Of a stretch of DNA of 46,919 bases, positions 2,719 through 46,919 are shown piece after piece (within the stretch, counting starts at the first letter, position 1; the number at the start of each line of letters is the position of its first letter). The DNA is from a virus. Where the stretch lies: the IMG/VR virus record IMGVR_UViG_3300036846_000438, positions 1 through 46,919 of that record; one strand, 5' to 3'. The notes beneath the pieces are model-generated. The model saw only the letters and a list, made by a program, of their open reading frames with translations, was not told where the DNA came from and ran no database searches. Both the position numbers and the translations under genes were made by a program.

Positions 2719-5109
2719 ACTGGGATCATCCCACGGTTTGGTCTCCCCCCAATGCTGCCCGACCTCGATCTCAGCTAGTATCGGTACATCTATCTGAGCC
2801 CCAAATACCTTTTCGACGTGGTCCATGTCTTGCATCGTGTCTCGAATGAGTGGAGCAATCTCATCCACGTGGTCGTCTCGAATCTCAAACATGAGTTGGT
2901 CGTGGGTAGTGCCGATAATTCTCGCCACGCGACTTGGGAGGGATGCCGCCAACCGCACGAGGGACACAAGCATGAGATCACTCGCGAGAGATTGGACTGG
3001 GGAATTGATGGCTTGTCGCTCGGCTTCAGCGCGTACCGACTGATCAGATGACTGCATGTCCGGCAGATGGCGTATACGTCCGAGAGGGTTTTGTACACGT
3101 CCGTACCGGGCAGCAAGCCGTTTCTGTCGGTCATGCCATGAGCGTAGACCCGGGTATGTCTCGTGGAACCTGTTATATACCCGCCGAGAGTCGTCGTAGG
3201 ATACCTCGATCCCATTAGCCCAACAGTAATCTCTGTAGCCACCTTTCTTCCCTTCTGTGCCGGGACCCATGCCGTATACCAGACCAAAGTTAGGATGCTT
3301 GCCCCATATGACTCGGTCGTCCTTGGTGATATCTTCCGGCAACTTGCGCAGAATGGACACAGCCGTGTTGGTGTGCATGTCTGCGCCTGAGTTCAGCACC
3401 CGCAGCATGGTGCGCTCATGGGCTAGCATGGCGGCTATTCTGAGCTCAATTTGCGAATAGTCAGCTTCGACAAAGATCCATCCTGGCGATGCTCCGAGGA
3501 TACTACGTATGAAAGGATCTCGAGGGACTTGTTGCAGGTTTGGACCTCGAGAGGAAAGTCGTCCGGTGACAGTTCCATGCAATAGGTAAGAAGTATGAAT
3601 TCTGCTTCGTTCATCTCGGCGCTCACCCCAGGGTAGTAGGTAGGTGGTCAACCATTTATGCCACTTGCGGTATTTCAGCAGCGCCTTGACGTACTCGCTC
3701 TGGGACTCGAGGGCGAACAGCACACCCTCTCTCGTGCTCGGGCTACCCTTGTCAGTCTCTTCTATCACTGGCAACCCTAGATCCCCGAACAGCCACGCCG
3801 CTACTTGTTGGGGTGAATTGTAGTTGATGCCCCCTGATGAACGATCCATGTACTTACGGAGCTTACCCAGTACTTCCTCCGCCCGCTCAGTACGCTCACG
3901 GAGTCTGTCGTCGTCTACCCAGATGCCGCCTCGCTCGATCTTAGTGAGAGCGTTGCTGGCAGGCATGATGAGCTTAGTGAATAGACGCGCGACCCTGATA
4001 TCCTCCGCCAGCCTGGGCTTGAACATCTCTCGCAGCCTGAAGGTGTAGTCACAGTCTTTGCCGTTGTATAGCGAGAGTCGTTTGAGAGCAACCCCCTGTG
4101 CGCCCTTGACTTCATCGCCGATGTCATAGTCGTTCGCCCCCAGATGCAGCTGAGCTAGGGGCTTGAGACCCTTAGCGTTGTTCTCGTCCAGCAAATGGGC
4201 ACCGAGCATAGTGTCGAACTTGACGTCTACGAAGATACCCGCGCTCGCGAGCCATCGCGCATCGAACTTGCCGTTGTGCCCCACCAGCTTAGGGTGCCCC
4301 TCGAGTACGGGCTTGAGCTTGCGTATGGTGTAGGTTGGGTTCAGTGTGCCGTCGGGGTGGTGGACAGGTACCACCGCTGCTGTGCCTGCTTCCCACGAGA
4401 AACCAATAGTCACTATCTGCGAGTCGCTGTGCCACTCCTCCAGCCCCGTGGTCTCAAGGTCGAACGCTACTACTGGGGCTCCCTTCAAACGGGCCACAAG
4501 CCAGTTGAGCTGGGATGGGAACCTGATGACCTTGACCTTGGTCTCGGGTCCTTCGCTGGGGGCTCCGCTGATGAGTCGAGCGAAGGCAGCGAAGTCCGCT
4601 TTGATTGTAGGGAGATAGCGAGGTGACCGTAATGCCGCTGCCGGATGAAAAGTCGGTAGTACGGTGCACCCTCTCCGATCGAAGGTTCTACCGCGGTACT
4701 TAGTAATACCAGACCTACCAGTCGTGACCTGAAGCGCAGTATTACCGAGAGAGAGTACATAGGCAGGGCTGACTCGTGAGATCTCTTCTGAGAGGTAAGT
4801 CTCAGAGCATGTCTTCGCCTCGCCTCGCGATGGCGTAGCGTTTCCTGGGGGTCTGCACTTGACGGCGTTGGTGATGTAGCACTTGTCCCGTGCGATGCCA
4901 GCGTCTTCGAGTAGTGACGTAAGAAGTCTTCCCGCAGGCCCGACAAACGCTTGGTGTGTTTCATCTTCCCTCGCTCCCGGCGCCTCGCCGACGATCATGA
5001 TGTCTGAGTCAATAGGACCTGTTCCCATCAAGCAGACCCACTCAGCGCCCTCGTGGAGTGGACACAGGGAGCAGGAGGGGTTGCGGACTTCGTCCCGCCA
5101 ATCAGTCAT
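2716..5109 (-). CDS. DNA polymerase I-type replicase with N-terminal uracil-DNA glycosylase domain
   Basis: 797 aa in three parts. Residues 1-180 are a family 4-like uracil-DNA glycosylase: GEAPG at 41-45, KCRPPGN at 84-90, FHPAA at 154-158, and cysteines 13, 16, 85 and 101 positioned as 4Fe-4S ligands. Residues 200-365 are a proofreading exonuclease (FDLET with D217/E219, NGKFD with D283, YNGKD with Y348/D352). The rest is a family A polymerase: motif A D550 in EADYSQIE, motif B K604-F608-Y612 in KHPNFGLVYG, motif C H736-D737-Q738. Gln replaces the usual Glu of the HDE motif. UDG-polymerase fusions are known in phages such as SPO1. It is the probable replicase. Confidence 0.93.
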   Translation of the reverse strand: MTDWRDEVRNPSCSLCPLHEGAEWVCLMGTGPIDSDIMIVGEAPGAREDETHQAFVGPAGRLLTSLLEDAGIARDKCYITNAVKCRPPGNATPSRGEAKTCSETYLSEEISRVSPAYVLSLGNTALQVTTGRSGITKYRGRTFDRRGCTVLPTFHPAAALRSPRYLPTIKADFAAFARLISGAPSEGPETKVKVIRFPSQLNWLVARLKGAPVVAFDLETTGLEEWHSDSQIVTIGFSWEAGTAAVVPVHHPDGTLNPTYTIRKLKPVLEGHPKLVGHNGKFDARWLASAGIFVDVKFDTMLGAHLLDENNAKGLKPLAQLHLGANDYDIGDEVKGAQGVALKRLSLYNGKDCDYTFRLREMFKPRLAEDIRVARLFTKLIMPASNALTKIERGGIWVDDDRLRERTERAEEVLGKLRKYMDRSSGGINYNSPQQVAAWLFGDLGLPVIEETDKGSPSTREGVLFALESQSEYVKALLKYRKWHKWLTTYLLPWGERRDERSRIHTSYLLHGTVTGRLSSRGPNLQQVPRDPFIRSILGASPGWIFVEADYSQIELRIAAMLAHERTMLRVLNSGADMHTNTAVSILRKLPEDITKDDRVIWGKHPNFGLVYGMGPGTEGKKGGYRDYCWANGIEVSYDDSRRVYNRFHETYPGLRSWHDRQKRLAARYGRVQNPLGRIRHLPDMQSSDQSVRAEAERQAINSPVQSLASDLMLVSLVRLAASLPSRVARIIGTTHDQLMFEIRDDHVDEIAPLIRDTMQDMDHVEKVFGAQIDVPILAEIEVGQHWGETKPWDDPS

Positions 5110-5296
5110 TCTTGTAAGCCTCAGCGAGATGAGCGCAGATTTTGCACAGACCCCTGTGGTTCCTAATCAGTGGCTGGTCTAGTCGCCTAGTCCCGCAAAG
5201 TGTCTTGTCTCTCGAGGCGTCTACGAACATATGCAGTCTCGTGGGTACATCAGTATGGGGTAGCCACGCCCCCGTCGGATAAAGGGGCTCACTCAT
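5102..5296 (-). CDS. Small cysteine-containing protein, possible zinc ribbon, 64 aa
   Basis: Begins MSEPLYPTGAWLP and contains CGTR near residue 34 and CKIC near residue 52, which could form a CxnC...CxxC zinc site of the kind seen in small phage proteins. The start ATG at 5296 overlaps the stop of the 58-aa gene upstream (reading ATGAGTGA), and the stop overlaps the polymerase start by 8 nt. It therefore belongs to the same transcript as the polymerase. Function unknown. Confidence 0.6.
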   Translation of the reverse strand: MSEPLYPTGAWLPHTDVPTRLHMFVDASRDKTLCGTRRLDQPLIRNHRGLCKICAHLAEAYKND

Positions 5297-5465
5297 AGCT
5301 CGCCTGTATCGGTCGGTCGAACGAGTCGACGATGGCTTCCTTCTCAATAGCGATAGCGTCCCCGCCACCCTCGGGCTCGCGGACCTCTTCGTACCTGACT
5401 ACAGTCTGTATGCGCTGCTTCACTTCAAGGATCCGCTTCATTGAGAACTCGTTCCAATCAGCCAA
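5289..5465 (-). CDS. Small hypothetical protein with TTG start, 58 aa
   Basis: This reading frame closes the gap between the dCMP deaminase and the 64-aa gene. It starts at TTG 5465 with GGAGGTGA placed 6 nt upstream, overlaps the deaminase stop by 8 nt, and ends at 5289 overlapping the next start. The product begins MADWNEFSMKRILEVKQ and ends in an acidic, Gly-containing tail. No family was recognised. The good ribosome binding site and tight coupling on both sides support it as real. Confidence 0.6.
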   Translation of the reverse strand: MADWNEFSMKRILEVKQRIQTVVRYEEVREPEGGGDAIAIEKEAIVDSFDRPIQASYE

Positions 5466-5892
5466 GATAACTCACCTCCATACCTAGATCTCCAAGCATA
5501 CTGAGATGCTCTCTTACGCGGTAGTAGTCAGCGAACACTACGCGGCGTATGCCAGCAGCCGCCATAGCGTGCGCGCAAGCGACGCAAGGGGAATGCGTGC
5601 AATACATCGTCCCACCGTTGCAGGGCGTCCCATATCGCGCCGCAAACGCTACTGCGTTCATCTCAGCGTGTGTCGCGCGAGTGCAGCCGTTGGGGTACTC
5701 GCCCTCTACCTCGCCACCACAGCCCAAGTCCTCGCAGTGTGGGAGACCGGGGGGCGCGCCGTTGTAGCCTGTGCTGACTATCCTCTCGTGCAGTGTGATT
5801 ACAGCCCCTGTGTGTCCTCGCCGGCAGGTGCTGTGCTGAGACAGTAGCGAAGCTATGTTGAGAAACATCTGGTCTCGCTCGCCCCTGTTCAT
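5458..5892 (-). CDS. Deoxycytidylate (dCMP) deaminase
   Basis: 144 aa from ATG 5892, which overlaps the TGA of the synthase-like gene (ATGA). Longer in-frame starts would read through that gene. Zinc and catalytic motifs are present: HAE at residues 75-77 and PCVAC at 102-106. CTHSPCVACA and GYNGAPPG are typical of dCMP deaminases. It should convert dCMP to dUMP in the cytosol. It sits in one operon with the TS-superfamily enzyme, implying phage-directed pyrimidine pool remodelling. Confidence 0.92.
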   Translation of the reverse strand: MNRGERDQMFLNIASLLSQHSTCRRGHTGAVITLHERIVSTGYNGAPPGLPHCEDLGCGGEVEGEYPNGCTRATHAEMNAVAFAARYGTPCNGGTMYCTHSPCVACAHAMAAAGIRRVVFADYYRVREHLSMLGDLGMEVSYLG

Positions 5893-7580: not shown

Positions 7581-8021
7581 CTAATGCTTCAGTTCACGAA
7601 GTCGATGGTGGAGTCGTTCCATCTTCTTGCGATTGATGGGTCTCTCGCAAAGGATGAGGGCTACTCGGGCTTGCGGTCCTTTGAGTTGTAGGTAGGGAAG
7701 AACCCCAGAAAGAATCCACTCAACATCAGTTCCCCTCCTCAGTCTCCACCATACATCTCGACTTCTAGGAGACAATGTGCCACACTTGAAGGTCTCATAT
7801 AACCACTCTAGAGGGGCGGGGCGTACTTGCTTGATAGTCACTTGCACTCCGTAAGAAACCCACAGGCCACTCCCACTTCGCTTCGTGGTAGATATGCACC
7901 CCTCCCCATCTAAGAAACCCGCCAAGTATGCCCACTCCTCCGACCTTATCCGCGGTCGCGCAGGGGTTGGAGCGTAAGAGTTTCCACGGGACACGTAGGG
8001 AGAGGCTCGTTTCTCATCCAC
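7581..8021 (-). CDS. LAGLIDADG homing endonuclease, 146 aa
   Basis: The motif YLAGFLDGEGCIS at about residues 32-44 is the LAGLIDADG helix with its catalytic acidic residue. Downstream come beta-strand-like segments (SYGVQVTIKQV) and a basic C-terminus. Only one clear LAGLIDADG motif is seen, so it probably acts as a homodimer. Its first 76 nt overlap, in another frame, the 3' end of the second synthase-like gene, and it ends just upstream of the promoter at 7548-7576. Thymidylate-synthase-type genes are recurrent homing targets. The GAAGAG before the ATG could act as a weak ribosome binding site. Confidence 0.8.
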   Translation of the reverse strand: MDEKRASPYVSRGNSYAPTPARPRIRSEEWAYLAGFLDGEGCISTTKRSGSGLWVSYGVQVTIKQVRPAPLEWLYETFKCGTLSPRSRDVWWRLRRGTDVEWILSGVLPYLQLKGPQARVALILCERPINRKKMERLHHRLRELKH

Positions 8022-8785
8022 TCTTCGTAACGCCTCCTAACTCTTCGTAACGGTCCGTAGCGTTCCTCTTCTAATGGTACACTATTCTCATACTTCTCAA
8101 CGATTCCTTTGGCCCACTTGCGTATGAGCTTGAGGGTAGGGTGGTTCTCAGACGGATACTCAGCCGAGGCGTCAGGGTCCACTATCAAAGGCCACAGGCC
8201 CGATCGGAACAAGTACGGGATGCCCTTGAATGAGTGAGCCTGATGACTTGCGCAGTTCCATCTGAACGCGAAGTCCTCTGGCTTCTTACCTATCCGTCTA
8301 CCTATCTCTCGGGCTATGACGTGGCACAGGGCGAGATCAGCTCCGCCCATGTAGGTGATGTAGGTCACACGAGACTGCAGTGCCAGCACGGGCTGACCCT
8401 CGTTGGACACGCGGAAGTTGAGCGCGGACATGCAGCCACCCCAACGATGCTTCTTCGCCCTGAACTCGGGCGAGCGGAACATCATGCTGGTAACAACTCC
8501 ATGCTTGACACCTCCAAGACCAATCTCTTCACTTCTTCGGAGGAAGGATTCAAGACGGCTAAGATCAAGATATTCTCGCTGGAGAACTGTAAAGCGACTA
8601 CGGTTGAGCCACAAATCTCTTCCAAGATCGAACTTATACGCCATCGATCTGCAGCCGACAAGGTTGTCGTATCTAATGACATCGAGTCCTGAGACAAAGT
8701 CTATCTCCTTATCCTTGGCACACACCATGCTCGTAGCTTCTCCGTGCCAGAGCTCAGTCAGATTCTTATACTCCTTTACTCTCAC
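7946..8785 (-). CDS. Second thymidylate-synthase-superfamily enzyme (divergent)
   Basis: 279 aa. A divergent TS fold is suggested by GGCMSALNF (Cys118 as candidate nucleophile), then Q-S-R-V-T-Y at 137-142 and a GGAD block ending in Asp150, where dUMP enzymes have Asn. The middle is conserved-looking; both ends are unusual. Start GTG 8785 has GGGGGGAAG upstream and overlaps the MazG-like stop by 20 nt. The 3' end overlaps the LAGLIDADG gene. It may act on a second pyrimidine substrate or a later modification step. The assignment rests on motif order only. Confidence 0.6.
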   Translation of the reverse strand: MRVKEYKNLTELWHGEATSMVCAKDKEIDFVSGLDVIRYDNLVGCRSMAYKFDLGRDLWLNRSRFTVLQREYLDLSRLESFLRRSEEIGLGGVKHGVVTSMMFRSPEFRAKKHRWGGCMSALNFRVSNEGQPVLALQSRVTYITYMGGADLALCHVIAREIGRRIGKKPEDFAFRWNCASHQAHSFKGIPYLFRSGLWPLIVDPDASAEYPSENHPTLKLIRKWAKGIVEKYENSVPLEEERYGPLRRVRRRYEEWMRNEPLPTCPVETLTLQPLRDRG

Positions 8786-16059: not shown

Positions 16060-16941
16060 TTAGTCCTCGTCCTCCTCGACCACGCGCTTGCGGCGAGTCT
16101 TGGTAGCGGTAGTCTTGGTAGCGGTCTTCTTCGCTACAGGCTTCTTCGTTACAGGCTTCGCCTGTGGCTTCGCGGCAGCCTTCTTTGCCCTCATCTTGTC
16201 GAGCGACTCACGTTGGATCTTCTTGTGCTCGCCGGCACTGATGAGCTTCCCGATCTTGACTACCTGCGGAGAAGTTAGCGATCTCCACTCGTACCTGTTG
16301 GAGTCCGGGTCGACGGGGATGTTGTTCTTCCGGAGCAGCATGCGGAGTGAGCGGGAGTCGATTCCGAAGTGTTCTGCGACCTCGGCACTACCGACCTTGC
16401 CGTCAGCTGCAGCTCTGGATTGGGTCTTCTTGGGGGTAGACTTTGCCTTGGTGGACGTACCCTTACGGGTACGTGCGGCTCGACGCGGAGCTTCCTCTTC
16501 TTCCTCCTCGTCTTCGTCTTCCTCCTCGTCTTCCTCTTCCTCGTCTTCTACCTCGTCCTCGGGCTCCTCTTCTTCGTCCTCGTCTTCTTCTTCCTCGACT
16601 TCTTCCTCCTCCTCGAAGTCCTCGAGCTCCTCGATCTCAGCTTCCAGGTCCTCGATCGCCTCCGACTCTTCCAGCTCTTCCTGCTCGACTGCACGCTTCC
16701 GGTTCTTGGTACTTGCCACGATGATTACCTCTCGTAGGGATGACTGTAGTTTGACTAACGAGTGCTTCCTGGTACCTACTGCTGTCCTGAAAGACTTTGA
16801 CTTGGGCGGGCGTCTCAGAGACTTTATTACGATCTCATTGCCCGTGGGTGAACGGTACACGGCGCGGTAAGTTCTCATGAGCTTCCAATTGATATGGACA
16901 GGCGCCGTTTGTTTCGGGGTTGGAAATCTACGTGGAGCCAT
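16060..16941 (-). CDS. Acidic-basic nucleoid-like protein with HTH-type domain, about 293 aa
   Basis: Three segments: a basic N-terminus (about 1-75), an almost pure Glu/Asp stretch (about 83-152), and a domain SAEVAEHFGIDSRSLRMLLRKN at about 187-208 that reads as helix-turn-helix with an NRYEW wing. The end is a Lys/Ala/Thr tail like histone H1. A GTG at 16719 preceded by GAGAGG is a plausible internal start, giving a form without the N-terminal part. Strong promoter upstream and terminator downstream suggest an abundant monocistronic product. It may bind phage or host DNA; unproven. Confidence 0.6.
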   Translation of the reverse strand: MAPRRFPTPKQTAPVHINWKLMRTYRAVYRSPTGNEIVIKSLRRPPKSKSFRTAVGTRKHSLVKLQSSLREVIIVASTKNRKRAVEQEELEESEAIEDLEAEIEELEDFEEEEEVEEEEDEDEEEEPEDEVEDEEEEDEEEDEDEEEEEEAPRRAARTRKGTSTKAKSTPKKTQSRAAADGKVGSAEVAEHFGIDSRSLRMLLRKNNIPVDPDSNRYEWRSLTSPQVVKIGKLISAGEHKKIQRESLDKMRAKKAAAKPQAKPVTKKPVAKKTATKTTATKTRRKRVVEEDED

Positions 16942-16980
16942 CACCTCACTGTGTGACCTTATTGTGTATGCAATACGGGG

Positions 16981-24278: not shown

Positions 24279-26483
24279 GTGTCCACGATCGCGCCTATAT
24301 ACCTCCCCGCTACAGGTCAGATCAAGGACGAGCCTGTCAAGCAGAACTTCGAGTTCATTGAGTCTCATTGGCCGACTGGGGGTAGTGGTGGCGGAGGGGG
24401 CGGCACGGGGGCGGTAGTTAGTGCTAAAGCTTATCGTAGTGCGGCGATCAGCACACTAAATGGCTTCGCCAAGATTCCCCTCGACACTCTAGTCTATGAC
24501 ACTGGGGGCATGTGGGACTCAGCGAACGGTAGATTCCTCATCGTTACTCCTGGCTACTACCAAGCTAATGCTGTCGCGGGTGCGCCCGTCAGCGGCGCTG
24601 GGTATCGTATTCAGGCTGGCATCTTCCACAATGGTGGCGGGGTGGCCATGAGTGAGGGCAACTCTGGCACCAACGGCAACAATCCCATACCGTCTATCTC
24701 AGACATCGTCTATTGCGTCAAGGGCGACTACCTCGAGCTGTATATTTGGTCCAACGCAGCTGGGTGGGCAGTCACTACTTCTGCGGCTTATTGTTTTCTG
24801 TCCATATCCCTAATTCAAGTGGGGCCACAGGGTCCACCTGGGGTGCCTGGGTCGACTGGCGCTCCCGGCCCTACGGGTCCTACTGGTGCTACAGGGGCGA
24901 CTGGCGCTACAGGTGCTGCGGGGGCTGACTCGACGGTACCCGGGCCGCCTGGTGCCACGGGTCCTGCGGGTCCTATAGGTTCTACGGGCGCTACAGGGGC
25001 AACTGGCTCAACGGGGCCACAGGGACCAATAGGTAATACGGGTCCAGCTGGGCCGACAGGTCCTACTGGGCCGGCGAGCACTGTGCCGGGTCCCCCCGGC
25101 GCAACGGGTGCTACTGGTCCCGCTGGGGCGACGGGCGCGACTGGCGCAACGGGACCTACGGGACCAACTGGGCCAGCGGGTACGCCGGGCACGGTCGCTT
25201 ACACATCGAGGATGCACCGCACTGCCGCGTTCACAGCGGGTGCGACCGGCTGGATCAAGATCCCGCTCGACACCGCTGACTTCGATACGGGCTCGAACCT
25301 CAACCTAGCGAACAGTCGCTGGGTGTGTCCGGCGACAGGCTACTACCAGGTTGAGGGGGCGTCGATGTTCGCTCAGTTGACAGCGAACGTGAACACGGCG
25401 TTCTGGGCCGGTCTGTTCGTCAACGGTTCTGTGACCTCTTACGGCGACCGGATCAGCAACGTTGACGCGCAGGGCGCTGTGTCCTCGACCGTCACTGACG
25501 TGCTCCATCTGAGCGCGGGCGATTACGTCGAGCTATGGACTTACGTCAGCGGCTTGTGGCCGCTCTACGTGACCGCTCCGGCATCAGCGGCCAACTATCT
25601 GTCGATCTCGATGGTTGGCGCCGGGCCGCAGGGACCGCCAGGACCGCAAGGGCCCACGGGGCCCACAGGACCCCTACTGACAGCGCGATGGGCGACTGTG
25701 TCTCCGCTGCCTGCGTATACAGTGAGTGGCGGTGTGCTGACTGCATCAGCAAACGGGGCGCTCGTAGTGGACGGGGTGACGCCGGGCACCAACGCCGTGG
25801 TGCTGGTAAAGGACAATACGAGCGACTGTGGCCTTTATCTCGTTACTGTGGTCGGTAATGCCACTACGCCATGGAAGCTGACTCCATCGACTAACCAGCC
25901 GGCGACTGATATGCCTGTCTACATCTACTGCGGTGCGGGTCAGACGCCCGGCACACAGGACAAGCAGACGTGGATACTAGCGAGGGCTGCTGGCTCAGCT
26001 TCGCCGTATGAGTCGCTGAGTCCTACGGTGATGCCGGGTGCAAGAGTGACGCTGAGCACCCCGCAGGCGATAGCGACAGGTGCTACTCCTGTACAAATTC
26101 TCTTTGACACGGTGATCTTTGCGCAGGCGGGCGCTGTCCGTGCTAGTGGCGGCGTGCAAGTGCCTTCGGCGGGGCTCTATCAAGTCGACGCTAATGTATT
26201 GCTCAACGTCAATGCGCCAACGGGCCGTATTGACTTCGGCGTTTACAACGTGACTCAGAACCCCTCGCCAACTGATGTTGGGGCTGTCTGTGCAGGCGCC
26301 GTAGTCTTCAACCACGCCGCTGGTCTATATCAGAGCATTGTAGCTAGCGCTGTTATCCAGGCCAACGCCAACGACGTCATCGGCGGCATGGTGGGCAATC
26401 AAAGTGGGGCCCCCGGTGTCTCGGGCGGCATCTACGGCGGCTCGAACTGGACGTCGCTGAGCGTGGTGAAAGTGAGCACATGA
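24279..26483 (+). CDS. Collagen-like tail fibre with three C1q/TNF-like domains, 734 aa
   Basis: Three similar beta domains at about 46-180, 307-447 and 591-734 share the pattern (I/P)xDT...P-x-x-G-x-Y-Q-x-x-A and end LSIS(L/M) or LSVV, as in C1q/TNF-type jelly rolls. Between the first two lies about 125 residues of uninterrupted Gly-X-Y repeats (181-304); a short Gly-X-Y tract follows the second (about 449-465). Such proteins form trimeric, stalk-like fibres. Start GTG 24279 overlaps a CCCTGTGTCC repeat. The stop overlaps the terminase start. Confidence 0.85.
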
Positions 26484-27925
26484 AACTCGCAGCTGAACCA
26501 GAAGAAGTAGAGATTGAGCTTGACTACAAGCCCAGTCCCAAGCAGCGTGAGTTTCATGGCATGGCGAAGAAGTACAGATTCTTCGTCGGCGGATGGGGCA
26601 ATGGCAAAACTGACGCTGGGTGTGCTGAGGCCTTGATGCTTGCTCTTGAGTACCCTGGGTGTACCGGACTAATCGCTAGGCGCACACGTCCTGAGTTGAA
26701 GGCGACCACGCAGAAGCAGTTCTTCGAGGGCGGCGGTGGTCCTAAGGGCTCGTGGCCCGGGTGTCCTCAGGAGCTGATCAGGCGGTTCCACAAAACCGAG
26801 GGCAAGCTCACACTCATCAACAACTCCAGCATACACTTCTGGCCCCTGGACGAGCCTGAGAAGCTGTCTAACCTGAACTTGTCGTGGTTCCTGATCGACC
26901 AGGCTGAAGAAGTGCCTGAAGAGATGTTCCAGATGCTGTATGGACGTTTGCGTGAGCAGATTGGCCCGCGCGTGGGCATGTGCCTCGCTAACCCCAACGG
27001 GCACGACTGGATATGGCGACGCAACATCTTCCTGAAGCAAGGCGGGGCGTACAAGGACCACGGCATGATCCACGCTACCACCTACGACAACCCTAATCTG
27101 CCCTCTGACTACATAGAGTCGTTGAGCCACATGCCCGAGGCGTGGATAAAGAGATTCGTCGAGGGGAGCTTCGACGTCTTTTCTGGTCAGATATGGCCTG
27201 AGTTTGATCCTGACGTTCACACCATACGGCCGTTTCCGATACCTGACAACTGGGACATCATCGAGGGCATTGACCACGGCCGCCGTAATCCTACGTCAGT
27301 GCTATGGGCGGCATTCGACGAAGTCGGCAATTGCTTCATCATTGACGAGCACTACGAAGCAGGCAAGCTCGTGGGACATCACGCCACTAAGATCCATGAG
27401 AAGCGGGCGTTTTATCGGCATCCTGTCTACACTGTGATCGACGCCTCAGCGAGTCACAAGGACCCCAACACGGGGCGCTCAGTGATTGACGAGTATTGGG
27501 ACTACGGCATTATCACTATCCCCTCAGACCGACACGTTCCCGCCCGCATCAACCGTGTGGCTGAGTGGTTGATGATGAATAGAGATTGGCCGCACCCAGT
27601 AACGGGGGAGACAGCTGACGCTGGGTGGCCGAAGCTGTATATCTTCAAGAACTGTGTCAATCTGGTCGAGCACATCCAGCAGTATCAGTGGAAAAAGAAG
27701 CCACCAATGAAGGAAGAGGATGCTAAGGAGCAACCCCTAGAGAAAGACGACCATGACGTTGATGCTCTGGGGTATATACTTATGACTAGGCCTCATCCTG
27801 CTTCCCCGATGGTGCACATAAACGAGGATATGAGTCCTGCTGCCCAGTACTGGCGTCGTGTGCGTGCGCGTATGGACAGGGGAAGCTCAGAACGAGGACA
27901 TTCAATGCTTGGTTCGGAGGTATAA
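26480..27925 (+). CDS. terL: Terminase large subunit
   Basis: 481 aa. ATPase: Walker A GGWGNGKT at 37-44 and a Walker B LIDQAEE near 136-142 (the catalytic Glu). Nuclease: [15 protein letters not shown] near 260, VIDASASH near 320 and a late [10 protein letters not shown] near 420 supply the RNase H-like acidic triad. It packages DNA into the prohead and cuts it. Located after the fibre genes and far from the putative small subunit, an unusual order. Start overlaps the fibre stop (ATGA). Confidence 0.92.
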
Positions 27926-28276
27926 GTGCCCTGGAAGAGATTGAACGGTATGCCCGAGACGCCCCAATGCTGTGTCGCCTGTGGGGGCAATCCCGCTGAC
28001 TTCGAAGGCAACCAGCGCCAAGCGCTGTGGGCCGAAGGGGTAGACATAGACTGGGGTGGCATGTTGTATCTGTGCTGGGACTGCGGAGAAATAGTGGCTG
28101 ACCTAGTGGGACGTGCTACGAGGGGAGGCTTCGACGATCTCACTAAGAAATATGAAGTCCTTCTCGAGGAGTACACCGAGCTAGTAGAAGAGCACGAGAA
28201 GCTGTTGGGGGAGGTCACTCGTGTCAAGGAGGGTGCAGCTGCAAGTCGGAGAATTCGAGAGCGCACAGCGCGGTAA
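27926..28276 (+). CDS. Zinc-finger plus coiled-coil protein, 116 aa
   Basis: CCVACGGNP (about 15-23) and CWDCGE (about 50-55) form a two-CxxC zinc ribbon. The C-terminal half is a heptad-like charged helix (YEVLLEEYTELVEEHEKLLGEV). Starts with GTG one base after the terminase stop. Possibly an accessory factor in packaging or head assembly; not recognised further. Confidence 0.6.
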   Translation: MPWKRLNGMPETPQCCVACGGNPADFEGNQRQALWAEGVDIDWGGMLYLCWDCGEIVADLVGRATRGGFDDLTKKYEVLLEEYTELVEEHEKLLGEVTRVKEGAAASRRIRERTAR

Positions 28277-28286
28277 GGTGTAACTC

Positions 28287-28667
28287 ATGCCACAACAAGC
28301 CTATGTCCGTTGGTTGCAGGGATCGAGCTATGCAGCTCCAGCTACTGCCAACGGCAATGGCGTCCTAGGTGAAGTCTCGGGTGTAACTGGAGCCATCATG
28401 GCGGAGGTAGTGGAGTCCGCGGGGGGCACTGCTACGCTCAATCTCGAGGGCGCCCTAGATGCTAACTTCACCAACGCCTATCTATTGGGCTACCAACCGG
28501 TCAACGGTCAGTCGGCGCTCGCCCGTGCAGCTGTAGCTCTATCTGTGACAGCTAACCTGAAGGCCGTCTACCAGATTCTAGACCCGTACCCCTTCATCAG
28601 AGCCCGTATATCAGCTATCGCTGGTGGAGCTCTCATCGTAGTTCGCCTCTATTACGTGGCCAACTGA
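28287..28667 (+). CDS. Putative minor capsid/decoration protein, 126 aa
   Basis: Beta-rich and small-residue rich (NGNGVLGEVSGVTGAIMAEVV), ending IVVRLYYVAN. Composition resembles capsid fibre or decoration proteins and the 109-aa protein after the capsid gene. No direct family match. GGTGTAA upstream of the ATG. Confidence 0.45.
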   Translation: MPQQAYVRWLQGSSYAAPATANGNGVLGEVSGVTGAIMAEVVESAGGTATLNLEGALDANFTNAYLLGYQPVNGQSALARAAVALSVTANLKAVYQILDPYPFIRARISAIAGGALIVVRLYYVAN

Positions 28668-28723
28668 TGGTAACAGCGCTAGACAAATTGAAGGCCAAGC
28701 TGGGTAAGGGGCTCAAGAAATGA
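28667..28723 (+). CDS. Tiny amphipathic cationic peptide, 18 aa
   Basis: MVTALDKLKAKLGKGLKK. Its ATG overlaps the previous stop (TGATG) and its stop overlaps the next start (ATGA). The residue spacing places Lys on one helix face and Leu on the other. Either a coupling leader or a membrane-active micropeptide. Confidence 0.45.
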   Translation: MVTALDKLKAKLGKGLKK

Positions 28724-28965
28724 GCTACGCACTTGTAGCCGTAATCGTCGTCCAAGCACTCATATTTTTTTATGCAGTGGTCCTACTAAATACACGCGCG
28801 CGCGAGGAGCGTGCGTCCCTGGAAGACAGACTGATGGCCCTGACGAACATGGATTCGCTGATTCTTCACAAGGCCCACGAGACCCCCTCACCCGGTGAAG
28901 TGAGCTACGTGGATGAAAATCGCGAGTGGGAGCTTTCCCCGGGGGGTGGCGGTCTTGGCGAGTAA
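28720..28965 (+). CDS. Small membrane-anchored protein, 81 aa
   Basis: One N-terminal span (ALVAVIVVQALIFFYAVVLL), then a charged cytoplasmic- or periplasm-side helix (RAREERASLEDRLMAL) and a Gly-rich end. N-in/C-out or signal-anchor topology. Role unknown. Confidence 0.6.
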   Translation: MSYALVAVIVVQALIFFYAVVLLNTRAREERASLEDRLMALTNMDSLILHKAHETPSPGEVSYVDENREWELSPGGGGLGE

Positions 28966-29158
28966 CGGTAGACTTCAAAGAGCCGCTATCGGCCCTATCA
29001 AAAAGTCCAAGCAGGGCTCCCTCCATTCAGCACTGAAGATCCCCTCGAGCCAGAAGATCCCTGTGTCCACTATCAATCAGCGCCTCGCGGGCAATCCTAG
29101 TGAGGCGATGCGCAAGAAGCTCCAGTTCGCGAAGAATGCGAGATCGTGGGGTAAGTAG
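28955..29158 (+). CDS. Hypothetical basic protein, 67 aa
   Basis: Basic (MASNGRLQRAAIGPIKKSKQ...MRKKLQFAKNARSWGK). TTG 28955 preceded by GGTGG is the most economical start; GTG 28946 and ATG 28913 are in-frame alternatives with larger overlap. Contains CCCTGTGTCC at 29059. Its TAG overlaps the next GTG. Confidence 0.5.
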   Translation: MASNGRLQRAAIGPIKKSKQGSLHSALKIPSSQKIPVSTINQRLAGNPSEAMRKKLQFAKNARSWGK

Positions 29159-29313
29159 TGCCCGCACAAAGCCAACAGCAACGTAAGTACTTGTATGCCA
29201 CGAAGGGTCCAGCGTGGGTAAAACGCCACCACTTCGACAATCCCGGGAAGCTGCCTGAGTACAAGAACAAAGTTCACGAGGCAGCGGTAGCCCACATGAA
29301 ACGGAGGAAGTGA
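29158..29313 (+). CDS. Small basic phage protein, 51 aa
   Basis: GTG 29158 overlaps the upstream TAG (TAGTG). The product MPAQSQQQRKYLYATKGPAW continues into VKRHHFDNPGKLPEYKNKVH, the kind of short basic head-cluster protein often found before portal genes. The stop overlaps the next ATG. Confidence 0.55.
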   Translation: MPAQSQQQRKYLYATKGPAWVKRHHFDNPGKLPEYKNKVHEAAVAHMKRRK

Positions 29314-29726
29314 TGTGTGCTCAAATAGACCCCAGACTTTTGCTGCAGGCTGCTATGAATTCTCAGCCCGGAGCGGCCACAGGCGCCCCTACGGGAGCCG
29401 CCCCCCAGGCTGCTGGCGTCACCCCGCAAATGGGTGCGCCCACTGATGCGACACCCACGGGGAGCGCCGCTGCGGCTCCTACCGGCGCCCAAACAGCTGC
29501 CCCCCAGGGTACCGGCGGCATGTCGAACGTTGACCTCGCTCAAATGGTGGGGTCGGGCACAGAGCTTTCACAGGACCCCGCGGCGATACAGCAGATGGTG
29601 CAAATACTACAGGATCCCGGCACGCCGCCTGACCAGCGAGCGGCAATTCAAATGAGACTCCAGCTGGCGGCACTTCAGTCCATCGCTGGCGGACCTTCTG
29701 GGGCTGCCGGGACCCCGCAAAGTTGA
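29313..29726 (+). CDS. Ala/Pro/Gln-rich hypothetical protein, 137 aa
   Basis: Low-complexity Ala/Thr/Pro/Gly middle (about 20-70), then a Gln-rich helical end (IQQMVQILQDPGTPPDQRAA). Probably disordered in part. Position upstream of the portal suggests a head accessory or connector factor. Confidence 0.5.
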   Translation: MCAQIDPRLLLQAAMNSQPGAATGAPTGAAPQAAGVTPQMGAPTDATPTGSAAAAPTGAQTAAPQGTGGMSNVDLAQMVGSGTELSQDPAAIQQMVQILQDPGTPPDQRAAIQMRLQLAALQSIAGGPSGAAGTPQS

Positions 29727-29820
29727 TGGATGACTCATGGCATCCGTCAAACGGGGTTGAGCGCTCCGCGGGGAGTCCTCGCCTTCGCGTTGAGCGCCCC
29801 CCCGATCTTGAGAGGTAGAT

Positions 29821-31905
29821 ATGGCAATAGCAGATAATGACCCACAAACCCTGCCACCCCCAAGGAGCGAGGATGACAAGAAGCTGTACGGATGGGCTAT
29901 GGCCCTCTACAAAGAAGGCTTGGGCCGTCGGCGTCACTGGGAGGGGATATGGTGGGAGTCAATCGCAGTCTACATGGGAGATCTGTGGGTTGAGTGGGAT
30001 ATTCACAAAAGACGGCTTGTTGAACCTGTCAGACGGCCTGACCATAGGGTCAGGGTTCCGATCAACCTCGCCCAGCCGGTCGTCAGGACTGAACTTGCGA
30101 AACTGACCAAGAACCGGCCGATCATCGACGTTCTAGCCCGTTCGTCCGACCAGAGTGACTTGAACTCAGCGAAGGTCGGCGATAAGGTCATGAACAACTA
30201 CGTGGAAAGTGCGTTCCACATGGCGCGCGTGCGACGGCGTATGTTGGTCTGGGCGCTTACGTGCGGGATCGGTGGCATCATCGTCGACTACGACAAAACG
30301 AAGCTGGGCGAGATAGAGGTTCTGTGCGACCAAGGGGGCAACCCCATCTTCGACCCCCAGGTGATCGAGGCTTACAAGCAGCAACTGGACTCAGATGGTG
30401 TCAAGCCCAACTACAAGAGAATCCCCCAGGGGGAACTCATCATCAAGCAGGTGTCCCCGTTTCAGATCATATGGGACTTCAGTCAAATGTTCATCGAGGA
30501 CGCTGGGTGGTGCATCTACACTGACACCTACGACATCGATGAAGTCTACCGCCGATGGGGCGTCCATGTGAGCCCTGACCCCCATGCCATCCCGGGTATC
30601 ATCGAGCAGCGGCTGATGGGTAGGTTTGACTACACCGGCAAGCTGGCGACACGCCCTGTCCACGTGCAGAAGCTGTCGGAGATACATCAAATGTGGATCA
30701 AGCCGGGGCACCCGAAGTTCCCCGACGGCCTGTGTCTAGTCTTCAACAAAGATGGCATCCTAGACAAGACGGCGTTCGAGTACAGTCACGGTGAGCTCCC
30801 AGTTCACATGATGGGTCACGTTCCGTTCCCTATGGGCCCGTACGCTATGTCTGTGATCCCCCAGATCAAGGGCGCTGTGCTCGAGCTGTCCAAGACTGAG
30901 TCGCAGATGATGGAGAACAGGAATCTCATGGCGAACCCCCCGTGGCTGATTCCGAAGCAGCTTCAAATCACCAAAGAGATCCAAAACAAGCCCGGTGCTC
31001 GCATCGAGTTCAACTACATGCCGAATGTCCCTGAGCCCAAGCCCATCGAGATGCCAGAGATGCCGAAGTATGTGAGTGATCTCATCACCATTCTGAAGGA
31101 ACACATTCTCGAGATCGGGGGGCAGGGTGAGACGTCTCAGGGGCGCGTGCCCCCCGGCGCCAGGTCTGGTGTCGCTATCGCCTACCTGCAGGAGGAGGAT
31201 GACACCAGGCTTGGCGTCACAGTACAAGAGTTCGAGGAAACGATGGAGGGGGTGGCTAATCACATTCTCAAGGTCATCGCTGAGAAGTACACGACGCCGA
31301 GGGTAGTTCGTATTTACAAGAAGCACTCAGACGACGAGGTGTTTGACTTCTTCGGCTCAATGCTCGATGGGTGTGCAGCGGTGAACGTTCAGGCGGGGTC
31401 GGCACTACCGAGATCTAAGGCTGCCAAGCAGCAATACATCTTGGACTTGTGGGATCGTAAACTAGAGCAAGACCCACGCAAGGTAAGGCAGATGCTCGAG
31501 CTATCTGAGGGCGAGCCCGACGAGTGGGAGATTGACCTCGACCAGGCGGAACGTGAGAACCATATGCTGCAAAATGGTCAAGATCCTGGTGTCAAAGAGT
31601 GGTACAACCACCCAGCCCATCACTACGTCCACCGCAACTATATGAAAAGCGCTGACTACACTGCCCTGTCTCAGGACATCCAGGAGCTCTTCGAGCAGCA
31701 CGACGAAGAGCATACCTACTACGAGCAGATGCAGATGCAGGCAGCGTCGCAACCAGCACAGCCCCAACAGGGCCAAAACGGCTCCGCACCGCAGGGCTCT
31801 AGCGTTCCCTCTAACGCTAACGGGCAGAACGTTCCTCAGGGGCCACCGAGCCAATTCACATCAGCTACATCGCCGAGAAGCCTCCTTGAGGCTCAGCCCC
31901 AGTAG
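29821..31905 (+). CDS. Portal protein (podovirus size), 694 aa
   Basis: Length, position and content fit the large portal of podoviruses: an N-terminal domain with RRRMLVWALTCGIGGIIVDYDKT near 138-160, a core with ELSKTESQMMENRNLMANP and a long helical C-terminus ending in Gln/Ser/Pro-rich residues. It would form the dodecameric DNA gate at one capsid vertex and bind the terminase and the adaptor at 36156. Downstream stop abuts the 31.9 kb promoter. Confidence 0.75.
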   Translation: MAIADNDPQTLPPPRSEDDKKLYGWAMALYKEGLGRRRHWEGIWWESIAVYMGDLWVEWDIHKRRLVEPVRRPDHRVRVPINLAQPVVRTELAKLTKNRPIIDVLARSSDQSDLNSAKVGDKVMNNYVESAFHMARVRRRMLVWALTCGIGGIIVDYDKTKLGEIEVLCDQGGNPIFDPQVIEAYKQQLDSDGVKPNYKRIPQGELIIKQVSPFQIIWDFSQMFIEDAGWCIYTDTYDIDEVYRRWGVHVSPDPHAIPGIIEQRLMGRFDYTGKLATRPVHVQKLSEIHQMWIKPGHPKFPDGLCLVFNKDGILDKTAFEYSHGELPVHMMGHVPFPMGPYAMSVIPQIKGAVLELSKTESQMMENRNLMANPPWLIPKQLQITKEIQNKPGARIEFNYMPNVPEPKPIEMPEMPKYVSDLITILKEHILEIGGQGETSQGRVPPGARSGVAIAYLQEEDDTRLGVTVQEFEETMEGVANHILKVIAEKYTTPRVVRIYKKHSDDEVFDFFGSMLDGCAAVNVQAGSALPRSKAAKQQYILDLWDRKLEQDPRKVRQMLELSEGEPDEWEIDLDQAERENHMLQNGQDPGVKEWYNHPAHHYVHRNYMKSADYTALSQDIQELFEQHDEEHTYYEQMQMQAASQPAQPQQGQNGSAPQGSSVPSNANGQNVPQGPPSQFTSATSPRSLLEAQPQ

Positions 31906-31918
31906 CGTATAATCCCGC
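31886..31918 (+). promoter_or_regulatory. Late promoter TTGAGG-16-TATAAT (second 13-mer copy)
   Basis: TTGAGG (31886-31891), 16 bp, TATAAT (31908-31913). The 13-mer CGTATAATCCCGC at 31906-31918 is identical to that at 21992-22004. The next gene starts at 31940 behind GAGAAGGGA, so this transcript has a short leader. It boosts the scaffold and capsid genes. Confidence 0.75.
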
Positions 31919-31939
31919 CCAACTCGAGAAGGGATCCCA

Positions 31940-32485
31940 ATGCCGAAGAACAGAGACACGGAAGAGACACACGAAGAGGAGGTGTCCGAGGAAGTGCCCA
32001 AGGAGGGCAATGATTTCCTCAAAGAGGAGGCTGTAGCGGCTGAAGCTCAGTCACCCGCGGAGCCGCAGGTCGTTCCCGAACAACGACCCCAGGCTTTCAT
32101 CTCCCCAACCGGCGGCGACTCCGAAGCCGGCAAGCGAGCCGCGAAGCTAAGCAAGGCGATGGGCAAGGAAGCATACGACCGTGCCAAGGTAGACCCGAAG
32201 CATCACGGAGGAGAGGGGCAACTCCCGCGTCTCTATCCCGGCCAACGGGTGCAGATCATTGGGGACCACCCCGAAGCGGGTCGTATGGCCTTCGTCCAAA
32301 CGCCGATATACGAGGATGCGATCAAGGAACTGATCGGCAACTCGGGCACCAGCGAAGCTCGCCTCGTTGAGGTCGATTCCTACGTCGTGAGAACTCGCGA
32401 CGGGCGCTCAGACTTGATGGTTGTACCCAGCGAGGATCTAAGGGTCCTTGAGGTCCATCAGGGGTGGGGGAGAGGCCAAATCTAA
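31940..32485 (+). CDS. Hypothetical head-cluster protein with acidic N-terminus, 181 aa
   Basis: Residues 1-50 are highly acidic (EETHEEEVSEEVPKEGN); the C-terminal 90 residues look like a small beta-barrel (LYPGQRVQIIGDHPEAGRMA, RSDLMVVPSEDLRVLE). First gene after the promoter. May assist assembly. Not recognised. Confidence 0.55.
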   Translation: MPKNRDTEETHEEEVSEEVPKEGNDFLKEEAVAAEAQSPAEPQVVPEQRPQAFISPTGGDSEAGKRAAKLSKAMGKEAYDRAKVDPKHHGGEGQLPRLYPGQRVQIIGDHPEAGRMAFVQTPIYEDAIKELIGNSGTSEARLVEVDSYVVRTRDGRSDLMVVPSEDLRVLEVHQGWGRGQI

Positions 32486-32979
32486 TGGGTCTCACTGCAC
32501 CGCCAGCTGGCGCAGACCCTACGGGTGGCATGGGTGGGGGTGGGGGCGACCCTACCCAGGGCGGCGGCGGGATGCCCGGCCCGGGTCAGAGCTCAGTACT
32601 GCTCCAGCAAGTTCAGAGCTTGTTGGCTCAGATCATGCAGAACGAGCCCGAGCCCGCTATTCAACGTGCGGTCGGCGCGATGCTGCAAATGACCAGTGAT
32701 CTGGGCAAAGTTTTGGGCCAGAACGATCAACAGGATATGACGAGTGGCCTAAATACTCCGGGGGGCGCGATGGCCCCTGGAGGTGGGATCGGGGGGCCTG
32801 ACCTGTCAGGCGGCACTCAGTCGTCTGAAGGTCCGGCCTCCTCCCCATCATTCGCCGGCGCACGGAAGGCAGCAATGGCGAACTTCGCAGAAAAGGGGCA
32901 CTTCTCAAAATCAGGGTCCAAGGGCGAACAGCTACAGACCGCTAAAACCAAGAACCGCACAAAGGGGGGTAAGAGCTAA
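32485..32979 (+). CDS. Gly-rich hypothetical head protein, 164 aa
   Basis: ATG 32485 overlaps the previous TAA (TAATG); a start at 32464 would overlap more. Gly-rich flanks (GGMGGGGGDPTQGGGG) surround a helical Gln-rich core (VLLQQVQSLLAQIMQNEPEP) and a basic tail. Not recognised. Confidence 0.5.
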   Translation: MGLTAPPAGADPTGGMGGGGGDPTQGGGGMPGPGQSSVLLQQVQSLLAQIMQNEPEPAIQRAVGAMLQMTSDLGKVLGQNDQQDMTSGLNTPGGAMAPGGGIGGPDLSGGTQSSEGPASSPSFAGARKAAMANFAEKGHFSKSGSKGEQLQTAKTKNRTKGGKS

Positions 32980-33005
32980 GGCCCACTGAGGCACAGCTCA
33001 CCGAC

Positions 33006-33905
33006 ATGGAAGCATCAGTTGCCGCACCAGCTCAAGGGACGCCACCCGCTGCTCAGCCGCCGGCCAGCGGCCAAGGGTCTAGCGGGCAAGGTCAGTCTAC
33101 AGGCTCCCAGCAGCAACAGGGCAGTTCCTTCAATTGGGGTCTATTCCCCAACGTCCCTGAAAATCAACGCGAGCTCCTACAACCTCACCTGACCAACGTG
33201 CTTGGCCATGTGACCCGTATGGAGCAGCAGTACGCGCCGTATAAAAGTCTCATGGATCAGGTCACTCCAGACCAAGTCCAGAACCTTCTCACGTTTCTGG
33301 GTAACTACTCAACGGACCCTGTGTCCACGTGGTTGGGACTGGCACAGTCGCTTCAGGAGGAAGGTCTGATCCAAAATCCTGAGTTCTCCGTCGATTCGAT
33401 ACAGGCACTCTTGAGTGCCCCAGGTCCTATGGACGGGGTGGAGATGGGAGACGTGCCGTCGTGGGCTCAGCAGATGATGACCGACCAGCAATCGGTCATG
33501 CAGTACATCAACCAGCAGCAGGAAGCTGAGAATCAGCGAGCTGCCGCTGATGAGTCCCGTCAGCAAGAAGCCCTTCTCACTGAGGCAAAGGGGACTATCA
33601 GGGAGAATTTGAAGGCATCGGGGATCCCAGACGATCTCGTATCCGATGAGCAGATAGTAGCCGCACTAATCGTCCACAAGGGCGATATTTCCACTGCGGC
33701 TCAGAGTTTCACTGGTCTGAGGGACGGGTTTCTAAAGGACTTCACGACTAATAACTCAAACGGCAGCCGTGCGCCGACAGTCAGAGGAGAAATGCCTCAG
33801 GCGCCTAAGCAAGGGCTAAACCCCCGTAGGGGCGATCCCTTCCGCGAAGCGACTGTAGGTGCTCAGCAGTTCCTCGCTCAAAGCGCCGCGGCTGAAGGCA
33901 GCTGA
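33006..33905 (+). CDS. Putative scaffolding protein, 299 aa
   Basis: Disordered Gln/Ser/Pro/Gly N-terminus (1-45), then a helical, acidic and Gln-rich body (SLQEEGLIQ, QQEAENQRAAADESRQQEAL), immediately upstream of the capsid gene. That combination is typical of podoviral scaffolds that shape the procapsid and leave or are degraded. It carries a CCCTGTGTCC site at 33317. Confidence 0.65.
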   Translation: MEASVAAPAQGTPPAAQPPASGQGSSGQGQSTGSQQQQGSSFNWGLFPNVPENQRELLQPHLTNVLGHVTRMEQQYAPYKSLMDQVTPDQVQNLLTFLGNYSTDPVSTWLGLAQSLQEEGLIQNPEFSVDSIQALLSAPGPMDGVEMGDVPSWAQQMMTDQQSVMQYINQQQEAENQRAAADESRQQEALLTEAKGTIRENLKASGIPDDLVSDEQIVAALIVHKGDISTAAQSFTGLRDGFLKDFTTNNSNGSRAPTVRGEMPQAPKQGLNPRRGDPFREATVGAQQFLAQSAAAEGS

Positions 33906-45875: not shown

Positions 45876-46172
45876 CTACTCTCTGACACGGGGCGGGAGC
45901 GATGTCAGTATTTGCTCCCGCTCTTCGTCAGTCAATTCGTCCATCGTAGTCAGGGGCCACACTTTCGCCCTGAGCAGTACGTTCTCTGCACCGTCCCTGT
46001 TCAAGTGGGGCAGACGACGCAAAACATCGTATACTCGCGTGCGTCCTAGCGATTCTGGGGGACGTTCTAGGAGCTCGCGAACACTGATTCGATGATCACT
46101 GAGGGCAGCGAACAACTCAGCGTTAGCAGCTCTTGTATCGCGCGCCTTATCTAGGCGCTTTTCTCTAGTCAT
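45876..46172 (-). CDS. mIHF-like DNA-binding protein, 98 aa
   Basis: The region ISVRELLERPPESLGRTRVY followed by DVLRRLPHLNRDGAENVLL resembles actinobacterial integration host factor (mIHF), with its conserved basic helix and H2TH-like repeat. ATG 46172 overlaps the VRR-NUC stop by 8 nt. It would bend or compact DNA in replication or packaging. Convergent with the carboxypeptidase gene with only one base between. Confidence 0.6.
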   Translation of the reverse strand: MTREKRLDKARDTRAANAELFAALSDHRISVRELLERPPESLGRTRVYDVLRRLPHLNRDGAENVLLRAKVWPLTTMDELTDEEREQILTSLPPRVRE

Positions 46173-46446
46173 GAAGTATCTCCCAGCATTCCCTGTAACT
46201 AGTAGCCACACCTGCCCTGCCCCCTGAGTTGCGGATCTTTTCTATGGTGGCTGCCTGGCGCTCTGTGAGGTTCTTTTCCTTGCCCGGCATCTTCATCTCT
46301 ATCCCGAAGAACTCGCCCTGTAGGCAGCCGATGATGTCTGGTAAACCGCTCCTTTGAAACGGACTTCCGTGCATTTTGACTGCAAAGCACCCAGGTAGCT
46401 TATTCAGCCGCTTGACACAGTCTCGGGTTAGTTCAGCCTCATTCAT
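46165..46446 (-). CDS. VRR-NUC domain nuclease, complete copy
   Basis: 93 aa. VRR-NUC signature: acidic Glu3/Glu5 region, GLPDIIG at 34-40 (Asp37), IEMKMPGK with the E-x-K pair at 50-52, and QAATIEKIRNSGGRA. Start ATG 46446 overlaps the HNH stop. These nucleases act on branched DNA or as PD-(D/E)XK endonucleases. A truncated alternative allele lies at 1-205. Confidence 0.82.
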   Translation of the reverse strand: MNEAELTRDCVKRLNKLPGCFAVKMHGSPFQRSGLPDIIGCLQGEFFGIEMKMPGKEKNLTERQAATIEKIRNSGGRAGVATSYRECWEILHD

Positions 46447-46777
46447 CCGAGCAGGTGCATCTTCCTAATATACGTTTGGCAAAGTTGCAGTTGTGGCAAA
46501 GGATCTGATAATCATTTGAGAACTCTGAGGCAATTATGTCTCTGAGGAAACCCGTAGACCCAAATTGCTCTCTATGAGCTCTTCCCCCACCATTCACGTG
46601 ATCTATCGTCAAATGGTGTTGGTAGTCGGTGCCGCAACACGCACACCGACTGCCATAGGCTTCTAGGATAACTTGTCGGAACTTCTCCCTTGTTCTTTTG
46701 CTTCTAGTCTGCTTCTTGCGTTTGAAACTCGGCGCCCTCCTACGAGCCTTACGAGCTTCCGGATCCTTATAGGGCAC
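46439..46777 (-). CDS. HNH homing endonuclease, 112 aa, present in only one allele
   Basis: Basic N-terminus, zinc cysteines 45 and 48 (CACC), TIDHVNGGG with Asp59-His60, and LCHNCN at 93-98 completing the HNH/zinc motif. Start GTG 46777 shares a base with the stop of the ssDNA-binding gene (TAGTG) and its stop overlaps the VRR-NUC ATG. The gene is absent from the matching locus at 1-344, where the same neighbours are joined by a TTGA. Confidence 0.85.
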   Translation of the reverse strand: MPYKDPEARKARRRAPSFKRKKQTRSKRTREKFRQVILEAYGSRCACCGTDYQHHLTIDHVNGGGRAHREQFGSTGFLRDIIASEFSNDYQILCHNCNFAKRILGRCTCSDE

Positions 46778-46919
46778 TAAATCTCGTCGAGATCCAAATC
46801 TTCAATCTCTTCCTCGTCCTCTACCGCCGCCTTAGAGCTCTTCTTGGACCGCTTGCGGGGCGCAGGCTCTTCTTCCTCTTCCTCCTCATCTTCTTCGTCC
46901 TCTTCCTCGTCGAGGACCT
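46777..46919 (-). CDS. C-terminal end of the DUF669 ssDNA-binding gene (second copy, cut by window edge)
   Basis: The last 47 codons of the gene at 202-726, ending with LDLDEI and a TAG stop at 46779-46777. Bases 46793-46919 equal 218-344 exactly (127 bp). This is contig-end overlap rather than an extra gene. Confidence 0.85.
   Translation of the reverse strand, partial: VLDEEEDEEDEEEEEEEPAPRKRSKKSSKAAVEDEEEIEDLDLDEI

Follow-up and report, generated by a model that had tools for sequence, protein, structure and literature searches.

Why should the two ends of a single viral contig carry the same pair of genes in two forms, once directly joined and once with an endonuclease gene between them? 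The question is raised by the window, i.e. the whole stretch of 46,919 nucleotides analysed here (IMG/VR record IMGVR_UViG_3300036846_000438), the ends of which an earlier note had interpreted as two alleles of one locus. Direct comparison of head and tail bears this out, with an HNH-free version of the locus at positions 1-344 (allele A) and an HNH-bearing version at 46242-46919 (allele B), all of the genes lying on the minus strand. The pair consists of an SSB-like gene assigned by family match (DUF669, PF05037; 202-726 in allele A) and a VRR-NUC or Hjc-like nuclease gene (PF08774, PF01870), which is complete in allele B at 46165-46446 and is cut by the contig end in allele A, where codons 1-36 occupy 98-205 and codons 37-68 occupy 1-97.

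In allele A the SSB stop codon TGA (204-202) lies over the VRR-NUC start codon TTG (205-203), giving the TTGA overlap at 202-205 that had been described for the empty junction. In allele B a predicted free-standing HNH endonuclease gene of 112 aa (46439-46777) stands between the two, and start and stop overlaps are indeed kept on both of its sides. Upstream the TAG stop of the SSB gene and the GTG start of the HNH gene share one base (TAGTG, 46777), and downstream the HNH stop lies within the VRR-NUC start in an overlap of 8 nt (ATGAATGA, 46439-46446). All reading frames, starts and stops are intact on both sides of both alleles. The identity of the outer parts is exact, extending over 97 bp in VRR-NUC (1-97 = 46242-46338) and over 127 bp in the acidic tail of the SSB (218-344 = 46793-46919). 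Apart from these repeated end segments, taken as identical arms plus diverged inner portions, the window has no long self-repeat. The DNA of the acidic tail also cross-matches a gene at 16060-16944 (minus strand), the protein product of which has long acidic runs (E/D repeats).

The nearest relative, L031 (IMG/VR 3300047160_013051), has an empty junction (TGATG) and a gene order of polA-Cas4-Sak4-SSB-VRR-NUC-orf111-lysis that runs unbroken across the point at which the window ends. Since L031 is continuous through the junction, circular permutation of the contig follows, and the two ends show a single locus twice. Cultured phages also provide the empty state: in Gordonia phage Cleo VRR-NUC is adjacent to, and overlaps, the gene that takes the place of SSB, and in Microbacterium phage Nucci the corresponding gene adjoins VRR-NUC. 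The search of relatives for both states that had been proposed thus recovered the empty one, while an HNH gene between SSB and VRR-NUC was found at no other surveyed locus of the relatives. The gap between the two genes is variable in a further four contigs (L089, L090, L092 and L093), being filled by a transglycosylase-like gene in L093, a GH25-like gene in L090 and small ORFs of unknown function, and as these are other cargo genes at the same junction it evidently takes inserts of other kinds. A protein search of viral_contigs gave no further close relatives spanning the locus besides L030 and L031, an exact 42-mer search for relatives of the locus found none, and there was no DNA match in cultured phages and no relative in genome_contigs. 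A contig of metagenome 3300036791 (L076) is 100% identical over 6082 bp to window positions 27821-33902, a region elsewhere than the HNH locus, and judged by this identity it represents this phage population in a second record.

The two alleles differ by more than the HNH gene. VRR-NUC codons 1-36 (98-205 in allele A, 46339-46446 in allele B) show 28 nucleotide differences, with 20 of the 23 changed codons silent; the exceptions are the start codon (L/M), R12K and E19G. On the other side the last 17 bp of the SSB gene (allele B-specific end at 46777-46792) differ at three silent sites and in the stop codon (TGA vs TAG). Beyond these limits there are no differences at all in 97 bp and in 127 bp, and the change is abrupt; the probability that 28 evenly placed differences would all miss one block of 97 out of 204 columns is ~2e-9. 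Perfect identity over 97 and 127 bp around a tract that is ~25% diverged rules out uniformly diverged strains as the source. Whatever path the assembler took, identical arms around a core of such divergence must, as aligned, mark a recombination boundary. Because the diverged inner flanks lie between the identical arms and the HNH gene, what is seen is a replaced tract and not a clean insertion; on sequence comparison a recombination tract of ~460 bp distinguishes the alleles, in which the HNH gene lies between ~107 bp of VRR-NUC and ~17 bp of SSB. The reading of the locus as an insertion polymorphism in one phage population stands in that presence or absence of the HNH gene is the best interpretation, and needs revision in that the HNH allele comes with diverged flanks and is no simple insertion. 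In favour of the polymorphism are the circular permutation of the contig, the intact reading frames at both junctions and the shared end of 127 bp; 127 is a common maximum k-mer size of metagenome assemblers, so the ends have the look of an assembly-graph bubble, although k-mer size does not account for the 97 bp side.

Composition points in the same direction. GC3 is 0.50 in the HNH gene and 0.46 in the allele B flank; the equivalent codons of allele A have 0.69, the remainder of VRR-NUC 0.71 and SSB 0.74. Low GC3 shared by the HNH gene and the allele B flank indicates that they probably arrived together, their source being one with a lower GC3. Taken alone, the way in which third bases changed between the alleles is only suggestive (sign test, p 0.08). 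Polarising the 28 sites by L031 is uninformative, as 11 match allele A, 9 match allele B and 8 match neither. Sharp limits together with atypical GC3 fit closely, as a pattern, with a co-conversion scar.

The protein encoded by the inserted gene matches 12 PHROG families, including PHROG 2255; 11 bear the name HNH endonuclease and the twelfth that of endonuclease VII, with a best value of 3e-8. Pfam gave no match at the cut-off. The signature of a zinc-ribbon HNH protein is kept among 11 relatives, with C45, C48, H60, C94, N96, C97 and N98 invariant; the motif positions are C45/C48 (CxxC), D59-H60 (DH) and C94-N98, the last within LCHNCN. An AlphaFold model was obtained with fair confidence (pLDDT 86). 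A sequence search found no homologue of solved structure, and matches of the model to solved structures, HNH enzymes among them, are weak: the best Foldseek hit is to the HNH nicking enzyme 4h9d (E 0.22, Z 3.9) and Z is at most 4.2 in the structure comparison. The gene lies outside any intron or intein, both neighbouring genes having intact frames, and there was no Rfam match within the window. A packaging nuclease of the HK97 gp74 type was considered and rejected; the gene does not lie beside the terminase (TerL at 26480-27925, ~19 kb away), its immediate neighbours being SSB and VRR-NUC.

Relatives of the HNH gene occur at a variety of positions in other, unrelated phages. In L015 one is lodged between genes resembling gp47 and gp46, where start/stop overlaps of the kind seen here recur (ATGA and TAATG), one follows TerL in L011, those of L007 and L014 lie between two other genes, both unassigned, and that of Arthrobacter phage Glenn follows polA. 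Occurrence at such unrelated sites is the behaviour predicted of a dispersed mobile family. A second type of endonuclease gene is also present in the window, a LAGLIDADG gene (PF00961; 7581-8021, minus strand) directly after the gene at 7946-8785. In L093 a homologue with 38% identity (4660-5031) stands directly before the counterpart of that gene (5034-5870), and no LAGLIDADG match was found at the corresponding spot in L089, L090 or L092, which suggests that insertion next to this gene happened on two separate occasions.

Taken together, the locus probably holds a free-standing HNH homing endonuclease gene that is polymorphic, with empty and occupied alleles, in the sampled population of tailed phages, both alleles presumably coming from one such population. 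SSB and VRR-NUC, neighbouring recombination genes with coupled start and stop, would have received the HNH gene at the point where they meet. In a mixed infection the enzyme would cut or nick the empty allele at or near this junction, and the break would be mended with the HNH-carrying genome as template, so that donor flank would be copied along with the gene, ~107 bp on the VRR-NUC side and ~17 bp on the SSB side. The copied arm is longer towards VRR-NUC, and this suggests cutting on that side of the junction. Cleavage by the enzyme, repair of the break and the gene's present mobility are what we infer; observed as a basis for homing are both alleles, the sharp limits of the tract, the unusual base composition of both the tract and the HNH gene, the empty relatives and the dispersed HNH relatives. 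A further possibility, though a doubtful one, is that homing is in progress, with the SSB/VRR-NUC junction as target and the silently diverged start of VRR-NUC shielding the HNH allele from cutting. The ratio of silent to replacement changes relative to L031 looks skewed (Fisher p 0.035 for A and 0.08 for B). In control windows from nearby structural genes of the phage group with at least 94% amino acid identity, a silent share of differences of at least 0.6 was found in about 11-13%; a stricter cut makes such a share rarer (1/269 variable portal windows). Selected silent recoding of the target is not required, as by these controls the divergence of the flank lies within the ordinary range between lineages.

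The main rival, itself unlikely, is that related phages swapped a short segment by ordinary homologous recombination, in which the HNH gene was passenger cargo and no homing took place. Two crossovers close together, with no cut involved, would be expected to leave the same scar, the diverged flank resembles normal divergence between sister lineages, and the gap between SSB and VRR-NUC is a variable spot where relatives carry the transglycosylase-like and GH25-like genes and small ORFs noted above. Against this, the tract is very short and has at its centre a nuclease gene belonging to a dispersed HNH family, which is fitted in without loss of any codon, as neatly as at the gp47/gp46 site in L015. 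That one of the two junctions is an assembly chimera absent in nature is very improbable. Both do lie at contig ends, and the 127 bp shared end has the length of the k-mer mentioned above; the empty state, however, occurs in relatives, and intact frames, starts and stops on both sides of both alleles, with start/stop codon overlaps, are not expected from a random join. Least credible of all is that the HNH protein serves the phage in a recombination operon with SSB and VRR-NUC and is not the product of a selfish gene, for although the gene is co-oriented and start/stop coupled within the Sak4-SSB-VRR-NUC block, it did not turn up in the surveyed relatives that have this block, is missing from allele A and is atypical in composition.

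The window offers a clear natural example of a homing-type nuclease gene whose co-conversion-like scar can be delimited at single-base precision on either flank, all within a single metagenomic contig. This suggests that the ends of viral-assembly contigs could be mined for such polymorphisms, and the A and B junctions form a defined pair of substrates for a cleavage test. The mechanism of homing is already well known and the general idea of it is unchanged.

Free-standing endonucleases of T4 cut alleles lacking them, and repair copies the gene together with flanking markers; both co-conversion and a start/stop overlap (UAAUGA of mobE) have been described for these enzymes (PMC2988022). Among the closest parallels in arrangement are MobA and MobE in the intronless homing of T4-like phages, which share with the present case a free-standing HNH gene between DNA-metabolism genes, a start codon over the upstream stop, a patchy presence and a flanking co-conversion tract (PMC2988022). 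The gene described here differs in encoding a zinc-ribbon HNH protein of 112 aa, in another group of phages and at another site (SSB/VRR-NUC). In the intronless homing of SegF and SegG of T4, between close relatives, markers that flank the free-standing endonuclease gene are likewise replaced, but those enzymes are of the GIY-YIG type (SegF being a hybrid) and their cut sites are sometimes far from the gene (PMC2988022). Presumptive homing HNH genes have also been found at several locations among close relatives in lactococcal Skunavirus phages (PMC12724721); those come from cultured isolates, whereas here two alleles are preserved in one metagenomic contig.
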